Below, piece by piece: positions 1 through 8,152 of a DNA stretch of 64,000 nucleotides (position 1 is its first letter; each line of letters begins with the position of its first letter). Origin of the DNA: Singulisphaera sp. GP187 (GTDB lineage Bacteria > Planctomycetota > Planctomycetia > Gemmatales > Gemmataceae); NCBI GenBank assembly GCA_945905925.1, contig CAMDQN010000006.1, positions 1-64,000 on the forward strand, in the 5' to 3' direction. A program made the position numbers and the translations under genes. Below the pieces are notes generated by a model. The model did no database searches, had not been told where the DNA came from, and was given only the letters and a program-made list of their open reading frames with translations.

Positions 1-306
1 CTGGTTCTCAGTCTCGAGTCGGCCCAGAAACGGCTCGAACGTGTATTCCCAGTTCGCGTTCTGTGTGATTCCGCGGATACCTTGCCGAGCGAAGTCGGCG
101 ATTCGCTGGGCATCGGGAACGCGAACCCCGTTCCGTTTGAGCATCAAAACGATAGCCAGCCAGAACGACTGGGCTGCGTCGAGATCCCGGTGTTCGCCGC
201 GCCCAGGACTCTCCTCGACACCGGGCGGCAGGACACCCTGCTCGAGGACATACCGAACGTCCCGGTACGGCACCTGCAACCGTTCCACCAGTTCCCCGAC
301 ACGCAT
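1..306 (-). CDS. MerR-like helix-turn-helix protein, 3' end outside window
   Basis: Open for 102 codons from ATG at 306 to the window edge, so the C-terminus is missing. The N-terminus (MRVGELVERLQVPYRDVRYV) and the following VLEQGVLPPGVEESPGRGEHR have the shape of a MerR-type winged-helix DNA-binding domain (HTH, then a two-strand wing), followed by a helical stretch with DAAQSFWLAIVLMLKRNGV. A GGAGG-type ribosome site lies about 10 bases before the ATG. It follows a 73-codon gene on the same strand, separated by a perfect hairpin. Probably a transcription regulator or phage-type excisionase-like protein; its target is unknown. The DNA-binding call rests on pattern only. Confidence 0.6.
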   Translation of the reverse strand, partial: MRVGELVERLQVPYRDVRYVLEQGVLPPGVEESPGRGEHRDLDAAQSFWLAIVLMLKRNGVRVPDAQRIADFARQGIRGITQNANWEYTFEPFLGRLETENQ

Positions 307-331
307 CGTTGCTGCCCTCCATCTCGAACAT

Positions 332-369
332 AGCCGATTGTCGGCTCTACGGCAAGCCGACAATCGGCT
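332..369. repeat. perfect 15-bp inverted repeat (hairpin) between two small genes
   Basis: Arms 332-346 (AGCCGATTGTCGGCT) and 355-369 are exact reverse complements with an 8-base loop. The hairpin touches the stop codon of the 73-codon gene and lies just before the ribosome site of the MerR-like gene. No T-run follows on the minus strand, so it could be a weak terminator, an attenuator or an operator for the MerR-like protein. Confidence 0.6.
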
Positions 370-590
370 TAGTGGCCATCCGGTGGCTCTTCCTGGCCAG
401 ATCCCTCCTCTTGGTGAAGGGTTTGCCCAGAGAGCGATGTCACTCCTGTTGCGGCACGCTGCTGTTGCTCCCACTGCTCGGCCAGGATTCGGCCAAGTGT
501 AATCGCAAAGGCGTGTTGCTCTTTGGTGAGCAAATTGTCAGGAGCGTGTGGGCCGATCGGGCGAAGGTCACCGATCGGATACGAGTTCAT
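369..590 (-). CDS. small hypothetical protein (73 aa)
   Basis: 73 codons with a strong GGAGG ribosome site six bases before the ATG. The protein starts MNSYPIGDLRPIGPHAPDN and has one predicted helix (KEQHAFAITLGRILAEQWEQQQ) and a polar, Gln/Glu-rich tail. No signal peptide or known domain is recognised. It is the first gene of a probable two-gene unit with the MerR-like gene. The AT-rich repeated motif at 656-691 lies about 65 bases upstream and may hold its promoter. Function unknown. Confidence 0.6.
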   Translation of the reverse strand: MNSYPIGDLRPIGPHAPDNLLTKEQHAFAITLGRILAEQWEQQQRAATGVTSLSGQTLHQEEGSGQEEPPDGH

Positions 591-655
591 GCGATCCTCC
601 CATTGGATGAGGCGAAGCGGCCGACCTCGCGCGGAGTGGAATCGCTAATGCGCTT

Positions 656-691
656 CCTATGTATTATGACGCAAAAACAATCAATATTTAG
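656..691. repeat. AT-rich direct repeat, copy 1
   Basis: About 36 bases sharing CCTATGTATTATGACGCAAA-type sequence with the copy at 926-961; only a few positions differ. It is AT-rich in an otherwise GC-rich region. Read on the minus strand it ends in a TAATAC/TATACA-like hexamer upstream of the 73-codon gene, so promoter or regulator-binding function is plausible. Confidence 0.5.
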
Positions 692-715
692 TTTGATTGT
701 TCATATGGTTTTCGG

Positions 716-902
716 CTGTGCTCGGTCGTAGCGTTGTTCCACGACCGGAGGCGTTGTCCTTGGGCTCCCGAGTTGCTGCCGGCCAAGTGCCAGACGCCCA
801 TCTGAGAGAAGGGTGGCGATAGTTGTGGGCCACCCGCCGAGGCGCTCCCCTCAGTTTCGTGAGCTACGCCTCCTTTGTGAGTTGACGTCGTGCCCCCCAA
901 GG
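716..902. other. structured intergenic region, candidate non-coding RNA
   Basis: About 190 bases without a convincing gene, holding four successive self-complementary pairs: 723-729 with 741-747 (CGGTCGT/ACGACCG), 759-763 with 783-787, 811-817 with 829-835 (GGGTGGC/GCCACCC), and 839-844 with 867-872, the last enclosing an inner CTCA/TGAG stem. It lies exactly between the two AT-rich repeats. A TTG-start frame of 70 codons on the minus strand exists but has low-complexity composition. It does not match 6S, SRP, RNase P or tmRNA by eye. Strand and promoter are unknown. Confidence 0.35.
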
Positions 903-925
903 GTTCGCGATAGCTATTTGCTCGC

Positions 926-961
926 CCTATGTATAATGACGCAAAAACAAAAGATATTTAG
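926..961. repeat. AT-rich direct repeat, copy 2
   Basis: Second copy of the motif at 656-691, exactly 270 bases further on and in the same orientation. The core ATGACGCAAAAACAA is identical. It could hold a promoter for a minus-strand transcript covering the structured region 716-902. Confidence 0.5.
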
Positions 962-1023
962 ATTGTGTTTGCTATTAATTTCATTGTCGCGGTCTCATTG
1001 CGGGCTCTCGCCCGAGCATGCCT

Positions 1024-3789
1024 CTATCGCAAACGAACAGTATCATTCGCGACTGGGCTCGCGCCGATTATCGTTCGCAACCCGATCGTCGAGATCGTCG
1101 TCTCGGTGGGGTTATCCTCCGCGTCTCGGTCGGGGCCCACGCGGTCGCCCGTCTCGTCGAACGGGTCCGGGAACTGAGCGCGACGGTTGCCGTCGGGACC
1201 GCGCATCTCCTTCAAGAGCGGGGCCGTCTTCGGGTCGGCGGCCATCGAGTCGAACGTCGAGACGCTCGCGTGCCCCTGCATGTTCGACTGCCCGGCGAGG
1301 ATGAACACCTTGAGCGGTGCCTTCGCAGGGGCGGCCTTCGGCTCCTTCGCACCCGGCTCCTTGTCGAGGCGGATGAGGTCCGGCGTCTCGGTCGATGCCT
1401 CGATGGCGCGGATCGTGTCCCGGACGCACTTGGCCTTCTGCTTCATCAGTTCCTTGGGGAAGTTCGGCTCGTCCTTCTCGAAGTAGTTGGCGATCTTCGT
1501 CAGTTCCGGAATGACCGCCTTGGCGTGGGTGCCGTAGCTCAGCAGGATCTGCATCAGCTCCGGCGTCCGCAACTGGCTCTCCCACGGGTTCTGGTGACGA
1601 GTGTACTGGACGCACGCCGGGATCCCTTCCTCGATGCGGTGCTTGGCGAGGAGGCGAAGCCCCTCCACGCGAATCGAGTCGGCGAACATCTCCCCGCTCG
1701 GGGCCGGCTCGACGATGGCCCGGTGGATGGCGGGCAGAAGCGGCTTGATGTCTTGGGCGGGCAGGTTCCGGTAGACGGAACTGAGGCTGCTACGCGCTCG
1801 CCCGTCCTCGTTCTTCAGCCCGGCCCGCACGGCCTTGTACAGAGCGTCGCGATCGACGCCGTCGAGGGACCCGCGGAGCATTCCGCCACCGTCGAACAGG
1901 GCGAAGGTGAGGTACCGCTGTTGCATGCCGCGGGGGTCGTTGACCTTGTCCACCTCGGCCAGCAGTTCGAGCAGTTTCGGGACCGTGGGTTTGGCGGACG
2001 GCCCGATCTTCGCCAGGGCTTCGGCGGCCTTGACGCGGAGCCAGAGGTCTTTGTCGGTCAGGCATTTCCGCAACGGTTCCACCGCCGGTGCGGCCCGCTT
2101 GCCGAGAGCCCTCAACGCCTGACACGCACCGTAACGCGGTTCGAGGCCGGGGGCGTCGAGCAGCTTCAGCACCGCCGCGACCGGAGCCTCTTTCCGGCGG
2201 GCCAGCGCCATCGCGGCCCGCTCGCGGACGACCGGCGACCAACTGCCGAGGCGCCCGACGAGTTGATCGCCGCTGAGTTTGTCGTACGCGCTGTTGCGGT
2301 CTTTGTTATCCCACCCGCGGCCGTCGGCGATCAGTGAGTCCGCGGCCGCCGCGTCCAGGGTGGGGACGACGGCCTTTCCCGCGCCGGTCAACCGAATCTT
2401 CTTCAGCGGCGTCGCGTAGGCCAGCAGGTAGGTGCCCGTGCCGTCCCAGCCTTCGAAGCTGTCTGCCTCGTTTTCCGGAGGGCCTTGGTGCAGATAGCTA
2501 CCGTCCCACCGCCGCGCCAGGTCGAAGTACCAGGTGCCGAACTCCTTCATCCACGCCCCGGTGGCGTTCGGGCCGGACAGGGCGACGGCCGGCATGGCCC
2601 ACAGCATGTTGAAATAGTTGCCGCAGTGCCCGCAGTCGCGCTCCGACCCGTGCGCGGCGACACTCATCCGCGAGAAGAACTCGGCCCCCTTCGCCTCGCC
2701 GAGCGCGTTGAACAGAACCGCCGCCATGCCGCACTTGCCGTTGTCCTCATGCCCCTCGATCCACGGGTGGTGGTCGCCGTAGGGGATCGCCCCTTTGCCG
2801 GTGTAGAAGCGCAACAGCCTGGCACTCCGTTCGATGGCGACGGCCACCTCGGCGTCTTTCACACCCGCTTCTCGTGCCAGCACCAGCCCGGTCGTCAGCA
2901 CCAGTCCGGGCGAGTTCATCATCCCGTACCCACCCAGTCGCCCGTCCGGGATGGCGAACCCGTGTCCCCACGAGCCGACCGCACTTTGCCCCTTGGCGGC
3001 GGCCAGCGCGAGCCGCTTCACGCCCGGCATCACCGACTCGTCGCCGGTCGCCAGAACATACTCGGTGAGGAACAGCAGGCAGTACCCGCAGTACCACGTC
3101 CGGCAGTAGAAGGACGGTTGCAGGAGCTTCTTCGAGTACTCGGCCGTCCACTCCGCTTCCTTCTTGACGAGCGGCAGGTGGTCGGCGTTCCCGCTGGCCA
3201 GCAATGCGAGGGCGTTGAGCGACCGCGGGATGGCGTCCGTCTCGGCGTACCCCGGCTTCGACACCCGAGCGGCCAGCGCCTTGCACCCCTGTTCGAGCAG
3301 GAGTTTCGACTTGTCACAGGCGAAGGGGGCCGTCGCGCCGTAGCTGCCGAGTACCGGCAGTTTGAGCACGACCTCGTCCGACTTGCCCGCGCGCCAGCGG
3401 GTGAGCGCGAGTTTGCCCTCGCCCGCTTTCGACTCGACCGTTGTGACCGCCCTGCCCAGTTCCGTGCGCGGGTCGAAGGAGAACGGCTTGCCGCCGACAC
3501 CCAGGATCACATCGCCGACCTGGAACGCATCTGCGGCCGGCGAACCCTTCTCGACTTTCGTGACCAGAATCTGCCGGGCGTCGGTCATCACCAGTTGGTC
3601 GCAATAAATCCAGCCCCGCAAGCCCGTCGGGCCGAGGTTCCAATCGTGCTTCGCGTCCTTCGGGATTTTCGCGCCTTTGGTGAAGTCCGGGATGGTTTTC
3701 GGGTCTTTCGGAGCGGCGGTCGCCGGGTGAGCGAGTGTCGCGGCGATGATGAGGGTGCCGACTCGCAACGCCGGGGTGCTGATCGTCAT
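1024..3789 (-). CDS. secreted DUF6288/PDZ/HEAT protein with a broken SASA tail
   Basis: 921 codons from the ATG at 3789, chosen because it gives a clean signal peptide (MTISTPALRVGTLIIAATLA, cut near Ala26); an in-frame ATG further upstream adds an unlikely 28-residue leader. Order: PDZ-like module (about 60-130, QVGDVILGVGGKPF), DUF6288-type alpha-helical region (about 130-480), HEAT-like repeats (about 510-620), further helical domain, then the first 40 residues of a SASA esterase domain (KVFILAGQSNMQGHA, from about 825). After residue 863 the homology stops and a 58-residue unrelated tail runs to the stop. No complete esterase is present, so the tail is probably inactive. The DUF6288 role is unknown; scaffold or peptidoglycan/polysaccharide processing at the cell surface is possible. 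Confidence 0.7.
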   Translation of the reverse strand: MTISTPALRVGTLIIAATLAHPATAAPKDPKTIPDFTKGAKIPKDAKHDWNLGPTGLRGWIYCDQLVMTDARQILVTKVEKGSPAADAFQVGDVILGVGGKPFSFDPRTELGRAVTTVESKAGEGKLALTRWRAGKSDEVVLKLPVLGSYGATAPFACDKSKLLLEQGCKALAARVSKPGYAETDAIPRSLNALALLASGNADHLPLVKKEAEWTAEYSKKLLQPSFYCRTWYCGYCLLFLTEYVLATGDESVMPGVKRLALAAAKGQSAVGSWGHGFAIPDGRLGGYGMMNSPGLVLTTGLVLAREAGVKDAEVAVAIERSARLLRFYTGKGAIPYGDHHPWIEGHEDNGKCGMAAVLFNALGEAKGAEFFSRMSVAAHGSERDCGHCGNYFNMLWAMPAVALSGPNATGAWMKEFGTWYFDLARRWDGSYLHQGPPENEADSFEGWDGTGTYLLAYATPLKKIRLTGAGKAVVPTLDAAAADSLIADGRGWDNKDRNSAYDKLSGDQLVGRLGSWSPVVRERAAMALARRKEAPVAAVLKLLDAPGLEPRYGACQALRALGKRAAPAVEPLRKCLTDKDLWLRVKAAEALAKIGPSAKPTVPKLLELLAEVDKVNDPRGMQQRYLTFALFDGGGMLRGSLDGVDRDALYKAVRAGLKNEDGRARSSLSSVYRNLPAQDIKPLLPAIHRAIVEPAPSGEMFADSIRVEGLRLLAKHRIEEGIPACVQYTRHQNPWESQLRTPELMQILLSYGTHAKAVIPELTKIANYFEKDEPNFPKELMKQKAKCVRDTIRAIEASTETPDLIRLDKEPGAKEPKAAPAKAPLKVFILAGQSNMQGHASVSTFDSMAADPKTAPLLKEMRGPDGNRRAQFPDPFDETGDRVGPDRDAEDNPTETTISTIGLRTIIGASPVANDTVRLR

Positions 3790-3927
3790 CGGGTGATCCT
3801 GGGAGGCGGAGGAGGCTTCGTGATTGTGCCTGGGAACACCGCGTTCACCAGCGGCGGTCTTCTGCGACTTCAACGCCGGGAGAGACTTGCGCGGCCGCCG
3901 TCTGCTGCACCGGTCAGTTCGGTGCTG

Positions 3928-4437
3928 CTACTGGGCTTTCTGATTCCACCACCGATTCGGGTTGCTCTCGTCCCGGTCCGTGGTCCGGCTCCGCCACGCC
4001 TCGTGGACGTAGATGACCGGTTCCTCATAGGAGTGGACGCGGCGAATGGCGGCAAGTACCTTCGCGAGCGCCTCCGCGTCGCGCGGGATGGAGAACGAGA
4101 CCCGCGTCGTCGGGCTTCGACCCGCCTTGTCTTGCACACCACCCTTGGACCCCTCCCGGGGCCGGTACTGTTCCAACCCGGGGGCGTCGAGGAAGGCGAC
4201 CTGATCGTAGAAGCCGTAGTCCAGCGGCACAGCGGCCGTCACGGCCTCGAGCACCTTCTCAACCTCAGGGTTGGGGAGGTGGACCGTCACGACGTAGACC
4301 CGTTCGAGGCGGAACGAATCCGCTTTGAACTCGTCCGCAGGGGATGGCGGAATCCCGCGGAAGGCAAGCCACCCAATGCCAACCCCGGCCCCAATCAGGG
4401 CGCCCGCCAGTACAGTGAGCATGACAGTTCTCCGCAT
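3928..4437 (-). CDS. membrane-anchored NIF3/YqfO-like PII-fold domain protein
   Basis: 169 residues. Residues 4-27 form a membrane anchor or signal (VMLTVLAGALIGAGVGIGWL). The remainder matches the insert domain found in NIF3/YqfO proteins and related CutA-like folds: VYVVTVHLPNPEVEKVLEAV, then YGFYDQVAFLDAPGLEQYRP, then VSFSIPRDAEALAKVLAAIR followed by VHSYEEPVIYV, the typical closing H-x-YEEP segment. The NIF3 metal-binding domains are absent, so this is a free-standing, membrane-tethered version. Function unknown. It lies 138 bases upstream of the DUF6288 gene on the same strand and may be co-transcribed with it. Confidence 0.6.
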   Translation of the reverse strand: MRRTVMLTVLAGALIGAGVGIGWLAFRGIPPSPADEFKADSFRLERVYVVTVHLPNPEVEKVLEAVTAAVPLDYGFYDQVAFLDAPGLEQYRPREGSKGGVQDKAGRSPTTRVSFSIPRDAEALAKVLAAIRRVHSYEEPVIYVHEAWRSRTTDRDESNPNRWWNQKAQ

Positions 4438-5007
4438 GGGTCCTCCTCCGCGGCCTCACGAGGGGCCGAGCGCCGTGCGACCCGAGAACTGCCTGCTTCC
4501 CGGACCGAGCCCTTCGCGGCAGCGAACGTTTGACCGGACCAGGCGGGCGGAGCTACTGGTCACATTACCCGTGGCAAAGCTATCCCATTTTCGGGAACCG
4601 GTCGGCGGTCGTCCACGTCTCATTGTTGGCGTCGGGCGAACAGCCCGGACTGGTTCCGGTGCGTCGGGCGTTCCCCGGCCCGTTGGTTCGATCGGGCCGA
4701 GGGCGTTGCCGGCGCGGGCGACGGAGGTGTCCGTACAAGTTCGTCTGCTTCCTGTTCAACGAGGACCGCGGCCAGTATCTTCACCCTAACGTGTGGCTTG
4801 AGAGCGCGTTCACCGCCGGGTGTCAATCGACTTCGCCCGCGAGTTCCACTGCCTGTTGAAGGCACGCTTGACCGGCGACGCCTGACTCCTGTGGGGTCGG
4901 ACGACCCCGCAAGCGTAACTCACACGGCTTGCATCGCCACTTCCGGCCGGGCGTCTCCCGCCCGCCTGCCCCGATCGACTTCACAACCCCTGAAAAGAAG
5001 GACCGAC
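4438..5007. other. 570-base intergenic stretch
   Basis: Divergent promoter region between the minus-strand NIF3-like gene and the plus-strand SASA gene. No gene is recognised; the open frames have no signal, domain or ribosome site. A short tight palindrome (GGGGTCGGACGACCCC, 4893-4908) is the only structure noted. Confidence 0.5.
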
Positions 5008-6117
5008 ATGTCGAACCGCGCCACCCTCCTCACCACGCTGCTGGGGCTGTGCCTGTTGGCCGGCCTCCCCGACGGAATGTCGGCGGAGGACCCGAAGCCG
5101 AAAGCCAAAGGGGTGAACGACGCCCTGCCGCGGCCCGACGGCAAACCGGCCGACGTGTCCAAGCCCGTCAAGGTGTTCATCCTGATGGGCCAGTCGAACA
5201 TGCTGGAGATGGGCAACGTCGCGGGGGACAAGGACGGCACGTTGGAGTACGCGGTCAAGAAGGAAGGCCTGTACCCGTTCCTCGTCGACGGCGATGGGAA
5301 GTGGACGACGCGGCAGGACGTGCGGTTCGTGGCCGTGATGGGCAGCGGCGGGCCGGGGAAAACCCAGTTCCGCAAGAACGAATGGCTGACCGTGTCCGGC
5401 GGGAAGATCGGCGTGGAGCAGGGCATCGGCCACCACCTGGGCAACGCGCTGGAGGAGCCGGTGCTGATCCTCAAGTCGGCGATCGGCAACCGCAGCCTCG
5501 GCTGGGACCTGCTCCCGCCCGGCTCGCCGTCCTACGAATTCAAGGACCCCAAGGACGGCAAGACGTACGTCTACGCCGGGTACGGCCAGAGCCCCGACCG
5601 CTGGGAGAAGGGGACCGAGCCGAAGCCGATCGCGTGGAAGGCCGGCGTGCAGTACGACGGCGACGTCGCCCGTGCCAAGGAGGTGCTCGACAACCTCGAC
5701 AAGTACTACCCCGGCGCGAAGAAGTACGAGGTCGCCGGCTTCATCTGGTGGCAAGGCGACAAGGACCGGTACAACGCCGGGCACGCCGAGATGTACGAGC
5801 GCAACCTGGTGAACCTGGTCGCGTCGCTCCGCAAGGACTTCAACGCGCCGAACGCCAAGTTCGTCTGCGGCACCCTCGGCCAGACCGACAAGGAGAAACC
5901 AACGGGCACCGAGAAGTCGATCCTCGAAGGCAAGTTTGCGATCAGCGACCCGAAGAAGTACCCCAAGCTCGAAGGTTCGGTGGCCACCGTCTACACTCAC
6001 CCGCTCAGCATGGGGAGCAGCTCCAACGCCCACTACGGCAACAATGCCAAGACCTACATGAACGTCGGCCTGGGCCTGGGAGAAATGATGGTGAAGCTGC
6101 TCAAGCCTGGCAAGTAG
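5008..6117 (+). CDS. secreted SASA-domain carbohydrate esterase
   Basis: 369 residues from the ATG at 5008, which has AAGGA nine bases upstream and begins a signal peptide (MSNRATLLTTLLGLCLLAGL). The SASA (sialate O-acetylesterase-like, SGNH) domain starts near residue 55 with KVFILMGQSNMLEMG, the block I GQSNM motif carrying the nucleophile serine. EPVLILKSAIGNRSLGWDLL and FIWWQGDKD are the expected Gly/Asn blocks, and the C-terminal HYGNNAKTYMNVG holds the likely catalytic histidine. It would remove acyl groups from sugars outside the cytoplasm. Two related domains occur in the window (9505-10713 and the broken one at 1024-3789). Substrate unknown. Confidence 0.85.
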   Translation: MSNRATLLTTLLGLCLLAGLPDGMSAEDPKPKAKGVNDALPRPDGKPADVSKPVKVFILMGQSNMLEMGNVAGDKDGTLEYAVKKEGLYPFLVDGDGKWTTRQDVRFVAVMGSGGPGKTQFRKNEWLTVSGGKIGVEQGIGHHLGNALEEPVLILKSAIGNRSLGWDLLPPGSPSYEFKDPKDGKTYVYAGYGQSPDRWEKGTEPKPIAWKAGVQYDGDVARAKEVLDNLDKYYPGAKKYEVAGFIWWQGDKDRYNAGHAEMYERNLVNLVASLRKDFNAPNAKFVCGTLGQTDKEKPTGTEKSILEGKFAISDPKKYPKLEGSVATVYTHPLSMGSSSNAHYGNNAKTYMNVGLGLGEMMVKLLKPGK

Positions 6118-6310
6118 GCGGACACCGCACACACTGCGACCCACAGGCGGCCGCCGTCTCGCAGCGCGGAGGCGGTTCCGCCGGCCGCATGAGAAGGCGG
6201 GGGATGATTCGCTCGTCCTGACCGGCGAGCGCCGGTGCCCCGGCCCCTGTTAAGACGAGTGGTTCGGCGAACAGATCCGGATTTCCACCACTTTGGGGGT
6301 GACGACACAC

Positions 6311-8152
6311 ATGACTCGATTGATCGGCCTGGCTTCGGCAGTGCTGTTGTCTGTCGCACACCCGGTCCTGGCCGCTCCGGAGGCGGATGTGATCGTCTAC
6401 GGTGCGACGCCGGGGGGCGTTTGTGCCGCCATCGCGGCCGCCCGTGAAGGGGCCTCTGTCGTTCTCCTGGAGCCGACCGACCACGTGGGTGCCATGAGCA
6501 CCGGCGGGCTCAGCCATTGCGACTCCAACCAGATGGTGCGCAGCACCTTGATGGGTCTGTTCGACGAATGGCACACCCGCGTGGTGAAGGACTACACGGA
6601 CCGGGGGCTCAAGGCCCCCTACGACCCGACGGTGAAGGATCAGTCACGCTGGGTGTTCGAACCGCACGTGGCGATGCGGGTGACGAAGAAGATGCTCGAC
6701 GCGGCCGGGGTCAAGGTGCTCGTGAATGAACGCCTCAAGTCCGTCAAGATGGAAGGCCGCCGCATCGTCTCCCTGGTCACGAAGAACGGCACCTTCACCG
6801 CGAAGGTGTTCGTCGACGGCACCTACGAAGGGGACCTCATGGCGGAAGCCGGAGTCGACTGGACGATCGGGCGGGAAGGCCGGGCGGAGTACGACGAGCC
6901 GCTGGCGGGCAAGCGGTATCCGAAAAAGAAAATGGACGTCGACGGCTTCGATGACAAGGGGAAACTGCTGCCGCTGCTCACGACCGACGACGGGGGGAAA
7001 GATGAGGCCGGCGACAAGAACATCATGACGTGCAGCTTTCGACTGTGCCTGACGGCGAACCCCAAGAACCGCGTGCCGATGCCGAAGCCGGACAAGTACG
7101 ACCCGGCCCGCTTTGAGATCATTCGCCGCTACCTCAAGGCCGGTGGAGACGTGAAACAGGTCGGGTTCGACCTGTACCCGCTGCCGGGTGACAAGGTGGA
7201 CGGGAACAACTCCATCGGGCATCAGTTCTCAATCGGGCTGGTCGGCGGGGGGAACGACTGGCACAAGGCCGACGAGGCCGGGCGGAAAGCGATCTGTGAG
7301 GCCCACAAGCAATACACGCTGGAGTTTTACCAGTTCCTGACGACCGATCCCGCCGTTCCCAAGAACGTTCAGAACACTTACGCCCGGCTCGGCTTGTGCA
7401 AGGATGAGTTCGCGAGCTACGACCACTTCTCGCCGGCGCTGTACGTTCGCGAATCTCGTCGGATGAAGGGGCTCTACGTCATCAGCCAGAAAGACATCCT
7501 GACCAACCCGAAGAAGGACGACCCGATTGCCATCTCGTCATTCCCCATCGACTCGCACGATGTCCAGCGGATCGCACTCAAGGGCGGCGGGGTGATCAAC
7601 GAGGGCACGATCTTCCCGGTGCGGAAGACAGATCCCAAGCAGGGTTACGCCTACCACGTCCCCTACCGCTCGGTCCTCCCCAAGCCGGAGCAGTGTGTCA
7701 ACCTGCTCGTGCCCGTCGCGCTGTCCTGCACCCACGTCGGCATGTCGTCGCTACGAATCGAGGGCGCGTGGATGGTCATCGGCCAAGGGGCGGGAGTGGC
7801 GGCGGCGCTCGCGGCGAAAGAGAAGGTCACCGTACAAGAGGTGCCGTACGAGAAACTCCGCAAGCGGCTGCTGGCTCAGGGACAGGTCCTGGACTTGCCA
7901 GCTCAACCGAAGGCAGAGGGTCGCAAGATGTCCCTGAGTATCGAAAAGGACAAGTTCCACATCCACGGCCAGCCGACCTACAAGGGTCGCACCTGGAACG
8001 GCAAGCCGGTCGAGGGGCTACTGATGAACAGCCGGATGGTGCGAGCGACGTTCGACGACCGCAACCCGATCAAGCATTACGGCGACCTCGACCTCGAGAT
8101 GTCTCGCAAAAAGCTCGATCAGGTCGGGCCGATCAAGCAACTCATGGCGTGA
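6311..8152 (+). CDS. secreted FAD-dependent oxidoreductase with odd C-terminal extension
   Basis: 613 residues. Start chosen at the ATG of MTRLIGLASAVLLSVAHPVL, a signal peptide; a TTG six codons upstream is possible. Residues about 25-540 match the FAD_oxidored family (dinucleotide fold ADVIVYGATPGGVCAAIAAA, later HVGAMSTGGLSHCDSNQM and LRIEGAWMVIGQGAGVAAAL). From about residue 545 a different module begins: FHIHGQPTYKGRTWNGKPVE. It is nearly the same as a segment linking the sulfatase and glycosidase domains in the gene at 45794-48283. A short KHYGD...LDQVGPIK tail follows, shared with the small gene at 9242. Such oxidoreductases are common in planctomycete degradation loci; substrate unknown. 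The extension looks like a truncated domain acquired by rearrangement. Confidence 0.8.
   Translation: MTRLIGLASAVLLSVAHPVLAAPEADVIVYGATPGGVCAAIAAAREGASVVLLEPTDHVGAMSTGGLSHCDSNQMVRSTLMGLFDEWHTRVVKDYTDRGLKAPYDPTVKDQSRWVFEPHVAMRVTKKMLDAAGVKVLVNERLKSVKMEGRRIVSLVTKNGTFTAKVFVDGTYEGDLMAEAGVDWTIGREGRAEYDEPLAGKRYPKKKMDVDGFDDKGKLLPLLTTDDGGKDEAGDKNIMTCSFRLCLTANPKNRVPMPKPDKYDPARFEIIRRYLKAGGDVKQVGFDLYPLPGDKVDGNNSIGHQFSIGLVGGGNDWHKADEAGRKAICEAHKQYTLEFYQFLTTDPAVPKNVQNTYARLGLCKDEFASYDHFSPALYVRESRRMKGLYVISQKDILTNPKKDDPIAISSFPIDSHDVQRIALKGGGVINEGTIFPVRKTDPKQGYAYHVPYRSVLPKPEQCVNLLVPVALSCTHVGMSSLRIEGAWMVIGQGAGVAAALAAKEKVTVQEVPYEKLRKRLLAQGQVLDLPAQPKAEGRKMSLSIEKDKFHIHGQPTYKGRTWNGKPVEGLLMNSRMVRATFDDRNPIKHYGDLDLEMSRKKLDQVGPIKQLMA

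Follow-up and report, generated by a model that had tools for sequence, protein, structure and literature searches.

Large serine integrase attachment (att) sites have a short common core. A second point of comparison is offered by integrons, whose attC sites receive group IIC-attC introns at one fixed position; truncated introns of this kind have been reported, as has a IIB/CL1 intron within an integron array, and group IIC-attC introns are suggested as helpers in making integron gene cassettes (PMC7923331). Among titles and abstracts, we found no report that deals with group II introns of Gemmataceae or with such introns at the attachment sites of serine recombinases.

The DNA considered here, “the window,” is a stretch of 64,000 nucleotides from Singulisphaera sp. 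GP187 (Gemmataceae; contig CAMDQN010000006.1, positions 1 to 64,000 of the forward strand). The explanation that we favor for a 270-bp unit near its start, and hold to be likely, is a directional site of ~48 bp, of the recombination type, joined to the opening ~220 nt of a group II intron, which would have inserted on the minus strand.

The repeat pair is the natural starting point. Its copies (649–695 and 919–965) are 47 nt long, 83% identical, and spaced exactly 270 bp apart, which bears out the observation in an earlier note, made from the letters alone, of two 36-base copies at that spacing; by eye, those 36-mers (656–691 and 926–961) differ at 4 of 36 positions. The 24-nt core CTATGTATWATGACGCAAAAACAA has two exact matches in the window, against none expected from 100 shuffles. 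SITE1 (644–691, plus strand) is a complete copy, GCTAAT...CTATGTATTATGACGC-N13-ATTTAG, that ends a MerR/recombinase element, and SITE2 (927–961, plus strand) is a second copy of the same site, which on the minus strand reads as the 5′ exon of the intron fragment.

The consensus of the site, GNTAAG..CCCTCA-N7-TGACRC-N13-WTTTAG, is directional and about 48 bp long; both it and the position weight matrix (PWM) come from 37 chosen sites in 27 sources picked by eye. Family loci without the extended consensus were left out of the PWM, among them L150 (which later scored 18.2) and L161 (which later gave no score). On 163,605 control bases, nothing reached at least 10 bits except the window's own two sites. 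The shorter pattern RTGACRC-N13-HTTTAG has six matches in the 6.47-Mb genome of the organism, against none in a reversed control, and 36 in 19 genomes of the genus, against 7 in the control. Five of these 36 (in G007, G016, G002, G003:C83, and G003:C216) look like chance, lack the extended consensus, and were dropped, leaving 31 matches in 8 of the 19 genomes. With W in place of H, the pattern has matches in 29 of 95 family genomes; the recount gave 33 against 3 in the control inside the genus, and 33 against 52 in the reversed control in the rest of the family. As the bare pattern is not enriched in the rest of the family, matches there were counted only if they showed the extended consensus (L148, L151–L153, L160, L163, L165, and L166).

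Contigs in the genus that carry two sites (within about 7 kb) have them in direct orientation in 12 of 12 pairs, some of which are orthologous, and at unlike spacings that run from 115 bp to 7.1 kb. The one inverted pair belongs to a family genome (G078, contig C50, locus L152), where identical site 26-mers at 113 and 4304 lie 4.2 kb apart, with a distant tyrosine-recombinase match by the first. A long array of sites was considered and rejected, since no locus had more than two sites that the PWM made convincing; L050 has a third match, with a score of 15.9.

Between the two copies, the earlier note saw stems and no convincing gene. Structure and the lack of a conserved frame both stand, but the RNA belongs on the minus strand. 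The plus strand of 696–926 folds no better than its shuffles (z 0.28), whereas the minus strand is more stable than its own (z −2.71). Nine homologous 5′ regions, aligned as far as about window position 705, give a minus-strand consensus of 55 pairs with 93.5% of cells paired. Double changes fall in 25 of these 55 pairs, as many as in 0 of 500 shuffles (1–7 in slid versions), on a structure predicted from the same alignment that was used for the covariation test; for “further pair types,” one of five covariation measures, 29 of 500 shuffles did as well. The nine homologues support a structure on the minus strand. A plus-strand RNA was rejected: besides its z value, the opposite-strand alignment has 44 pairs, 19 of them with double changes, and is weaker than the minus-strand one. 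A conserved protein frame, named in advance as a sign against an RNA, was not seen between the repeats, where the frames listed are short and the gaps in the nine-homologue alignment are not multiples of three.

It is the company that the homologues keep which identifies the stretch. In G015, the homologue lies on the opposite strand, ahead of a group II maturase (RVT_1, RVT_N, GIIM, and HNH), and a BLAST match to this intron covers window positions 752–928. A scan of genome contigs with the G015 maturase kept 79 loci, three of them planctomycete: L060, which is contig G015:C269 itself and of the same genus as the window, L061, and L062. In all three, the homologue starts at GTGCGACC and forms the 5′ end of an intron, with the maturase gene behind it; L061 and L062 also have domain V/VI (RF00029) after the maturase. 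The intron maturase scores 295.1 bits against TIGR04416, where the cut-off is 300.

Judged by this homology, the structured stretch is a piece of a group II intron on the minus strand, namely its opening ~220 nt (domain I). The fragment, the start of domain I truncated at its 3′ side, runs from 709 to 926 on the minus strand, with its 5′ end at 926. That end reads GGCGAGC, a degenerate form of the consensus GTGCGACC in relatives, and over the aligned ~220 nt the fragment qualifies as a group II 5′ end (GTGYG plus domain I sequence). The likeness to group II introns lies in the GTGCG 5′ end, the domain I sequence, and the full relatives in L061 and L062 with their maturase and domain V/VI; the difference is that the window copy retains only those first ~220 nt. 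Since neither a maturase nor domain V/VI is present at the window locus (with no Rfam match in the window), we speak of a fragment and not of an intron. The organism's own genome holds no close copy of the maturase either, the best match being 47% over residues 91–279.

Such pieces are common. When the G015 intron was run by BLAST against 24 sources, 5′ pieces 72–95% identical were found in the window, L029 (two), L031, L032, L034, L035, L036, L045, L049, and L050. They end at different intron points in different loci, and in L032 a piece of the 3′ part follows the 5′ piece after an internal deletion. Among the 19 genus genomes, the 3′ part is found only in G015 and G012, with otherwise matches of 35–41 nt in G000, G010, and G014. 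Homologues of the structured part occur in 6 of 59 genomes, all of one genus and the organism's own included; the latter carries one at C207 (76%, plus a second partial one), and its paralogue C200 has the motif and lacks the structured part.

These findings also bear on whether the stretch might be a functional noncoding RNA (a riboswitch, small RNA, or guide RNA) kept in Gemmataceae. The covariation across nine homologues would suit such an RNA, as would the abundance of 5′ pieces beside the scarcity of the 3′ part. Nevertheless, those homologues that carry a maturase belong to group II introns, the remaining pieces stop at different points, there is no Rfam match, and broken pairs are more numerous in the window copy than in any other of the nine, so that we regard this reading as very improbable. 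Membership of an Rfam family was ruled out: nothing in the window reached a gathering score, the best match at a loose threshold was 15.6 bits against a cut-off of 48, and a scan of L034 gave only a tRNA. A guide RNA for a nuclease was likewise considered as a reading and rejected.

Within the site, the position of the intron is fixed. Its 5′ end falls at the same point and in the same orientation at 13 sites (the window, L029, L031, L032, L033, L034, L035, L036, L045, L049, L050, L061, and L148), several of which are common by descent, so that these are not 13 independent events. The exon/intron junction at SITE2 is the junction found in L060 and L061. In L061, exons are present on both sides of the intron and, joined, read by eye as a site; in L062, this intron lies elsewhere, away from a site of this kind.

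The resemblance to IIC-attC introns is one of arrangement: an intron at a fixed point, and in a fixed orientation, of a recombination site in a cassette-like system, with truncated copies. The site and the recombinases differ from those of integrons, and an integron integrase was not recognized in two tyrosine recombinases beside the site (that of L034 scores 47.3 bits against TIGR02249, with a cut-off of 265; that of L043 was not listed). The intron may differ as well. Its maturase relatives are cyanobacterial and domain V in three of the four relatives scanned fits a plastid-type family, for which reason the class is probably IIB/chloroplast-like.

The window copy has not aged well. The earlier note's “structured RNA” holds by descent, as domain I of a group II intron on the minus strand, but what is left in the window is a truncated relic. 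Broken stems, which that note had listed as a sign against its candidate, are present here (9 of the 55 pairs are broken, and gaps affect 2 more). The nine homologues keep 54 (C207 and G012), 53 (G015, L061, and G067), 50 (L062), 49 (G004a and G004b), and 44 (window, the fewest) of the 55 pairs; the introns with a maturase thus stand at 53, 53, and 50 against 44. The window and G004a fragments, which are 80% identical, have their truncation point in common. Between the MerR-like gene and SITE1 lies a 73-aa reading frame (369–590, minus strand), doubtful as a gene, as its codon positions are about equally conserved between window and G004a (81% for positions 1–2 and 79% for position 3), at much the same level as the fragment; the 75-nt leader is 89% identical in the same comparison. 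Because this frame is itself doubtful, that the fragment decays “neutrally” is something we infer. By its sequence, the fragment is a decaying relic, or “fossil,” of an intron, and it is probably without present function.

Where homology between elements stops is informative about the site. We made 16 pairwise comparisons, counting the first base of CTAAAT as position 1. In four of the tyrosine type, the edges fall at −4 (window/C200), −1 (C200/G004a), −6 (C200/G004b), and −2 (G004a/G004b), which is 2–7 bases outside the site; for the window, element homology with C200 ends 5 bp outside SITE1. Window and G004a are homologous through the shared intron piece to −251/−255, inside SITE2, and window and G004b have no homology block at SITE1. 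Among the serine-type elements, L035 and L036 share 1.2 kb that ends at −298/−299, 3 bases beyond SITE2, past which one has a SWIM gene and the other a different gene, which we take to be csb2 of a type I-G CRISPR operon. L035/L052 and L036/L052, in contrast, are 86–89% identical over ~700 bp ending at 184–196, inside the site and at the MerR start. The other seven serine-type comparisons are too diverged near the site to place an edge. The picture is mixed: element boundary and site coincide in the four comparisons of the tyrosine type and, for L035/L036, at SITE2, but not in the two with L052.

On the far side, the flank beyond SITE2 (1012–1070) matches the flank past the single site of paralogue C200 (769–827) at 78% over 59 bp (E 6.7e-5), with a local score of 54 against a maximum of 27 in 500 shuffles; the 50–72 bp between site and matched flank are not clearly alignable. 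C200, the one paralogue in which a single (“empty”) site stands at the matching flank, has one site and no intron piece, and the window locus therefore reads like C200 with one unit of site and intron piece added. The closest relatives that the 19 genus genomes offer for the 920-aa frame adjoining SITE2 are only 42–43% identical, too distant for a syntenic empty site to be read.

Could the two copies have come from a plain tandem duplication, or from homologous recombination between elements, with nothing site-specific about it? The identity of the copies would agree with this, any repeated sequence can recombine, and the comparison of empty with occupied locus is that of one paralogue pair. 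On the other hand, the 12 direct pairs in the genus share an orientation and yet have unlike spacings, and several homology edges coincide with the site; we judge such an origin unlikely.

Turning to the genes, the sites mostly adjoin MerR or recombinase genes, and to their right there is often the 3′ end of a gene. In the window, the N-terminal part of a MerR-like helix-turn-helix protein (1–306, minus strand) is cut by the contig start; it is 76% identical over 124 aa by tblastn to its relative in L034, and the relatives in L034 and L031 match Pfam MerR_1, with genes for an HTH_17 protein and a tyrosine recombinase coming next. Contigs C6 (the window) and C200 (L030) start with identical bases within the MerR gene. 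The assembly probably broke there, in a recombinase element present more than once, and the recombinase itself would lie beyond the window edge. Just upstream of the MerR-like start, a perfect 15-nt inverted repeat with an 8-nt spacer (332–369), the same in C200, is a possible MerR operator or terminator. Elsewhere, a leftward MerR-like gene, a 164-aa protein, and a large serine recombinase stand left of the left-hand site (L035, L036, L045, L049, L051, and L052); L050 has the latter two without MerR, and sigma-like or recombinase genes take this place in L044, L047, and L048. The recombinases beside the site are tyrosine (L031 and L034), large serine (L035, L036, L045, and L049–L052), or of both kinds (L043), so that the neighborhood ties no single recombinase to the site. 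The tyrosine integrase of L034 sits directly next to a tRNA gene, which may serve as the att site of that integrase; the tRNA was rejected as target of the site itself, since it sits at the other end of the element.

This gene order is what makes a promoter or operator worth weighing. The motif, read on the minus strand as CTAAAT-N17-CAYWAT upstream of MerR/recombinase operons, might be bound by the MerR-like protein or used by a sigma-like factor, and two copies would be two promoters. Of 18 loci (the window, L029–L031, L033–L036, and L043–L052), 14 have a leftward gene start, once only as a remnant, some 75–290 bp away from the left-hand site, and the 17-bp spacing is suggestive. Sigma-like genes adjoin the site in L047 and L048 and lie further off in L044 and L163; the one tested gave a weak sigma70-ECF match (E 0.00078), under the cut-off. 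L035/L052 homology also ends at the gene and not at the site. However, the genes on either side converge on the site in L043 (site 15871) and L163, L043 site 8762 overlaps the end of an exonuclease gene, CTAAAT agrees with TTGACA at only 2 of 6 positions, the homology of four element pairs ends at the outer edge of the site, and the introns begin at about the would-be transcription start, which would leave them no 5′ exon for splicing. The leftward gene starts would suit the earlier note's promoter or MerR regulator site, but the edges at the site, the direct pairs around a 7.1-kb recombinase block, and the convergent genes fit a recombination site better, and we consider a promoter rather unlikely.

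Under the recombination-site reading that we prefer, a group II intron in minus-strand orientation would have inserted into a copy of the site, and the site may be the crossover (att-like) site of a recombinase carried by these elements. By analogy, the intron would home into it as IIC-attC introns do into attC. The 270-bp unit would consist of one ~48-bp site copy and the first ~220 nt of the intron, added between element and flank through recombination at the site or by site duplication. As with the att sites of large serine integrases, this is a directional site of ~48 bp that marks element edges and often has genes for Resolvase- and Recombinase-domain proteins as neighbors; it differs from them in that the direct repeats are full length, tyrosine recombinases adjoin it too, and the crossover is putative.

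Several neighborhoods deserve mention in their own right. The block at L043 8762–15896 (7.1 kb) is bounded by two direct sites and carries an exonuclease, GP88, a large serine recombinase, a 453-aa protein, and a tyrosine recombinase. The SWIM gene is outside the site pair in L035 (8133–9032) and inside it, with an AAA gene, in L045 (6742–8451), a placement that might resemble that of an exchangeable cassette. In L036, a candidate CRISPR operon (1–7417), presumably of type I-G by its look (cas3, csx17, csb1, and csb2), ends beside a site pair with a MerR/serine recombinase element.

As an RNA, then, the stretch looks ordinary, and it is the site and the preference of the intron for it that look new. 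A wider proposal, possible but doubtful, is that Gemmataceae harbor an undescribed cassette-exchange system built on this site, with MerR-plus-recombinase elements to serve it, units of 115 bp to 7.1 kb between direct copies of the site, and a dedicated group II intron lineage that homes into the site and whose 5′ fragments travel with the cassettes. What the analysis does provide is the removal of a false regulatory-RNA candidate and, in its place, a testable 48-bp signature at the edges of planctomycete mobile elements. A second, unrelated pairing of intron and site would, in addition, offer an independent test of the role of introns in making integron cassettes.
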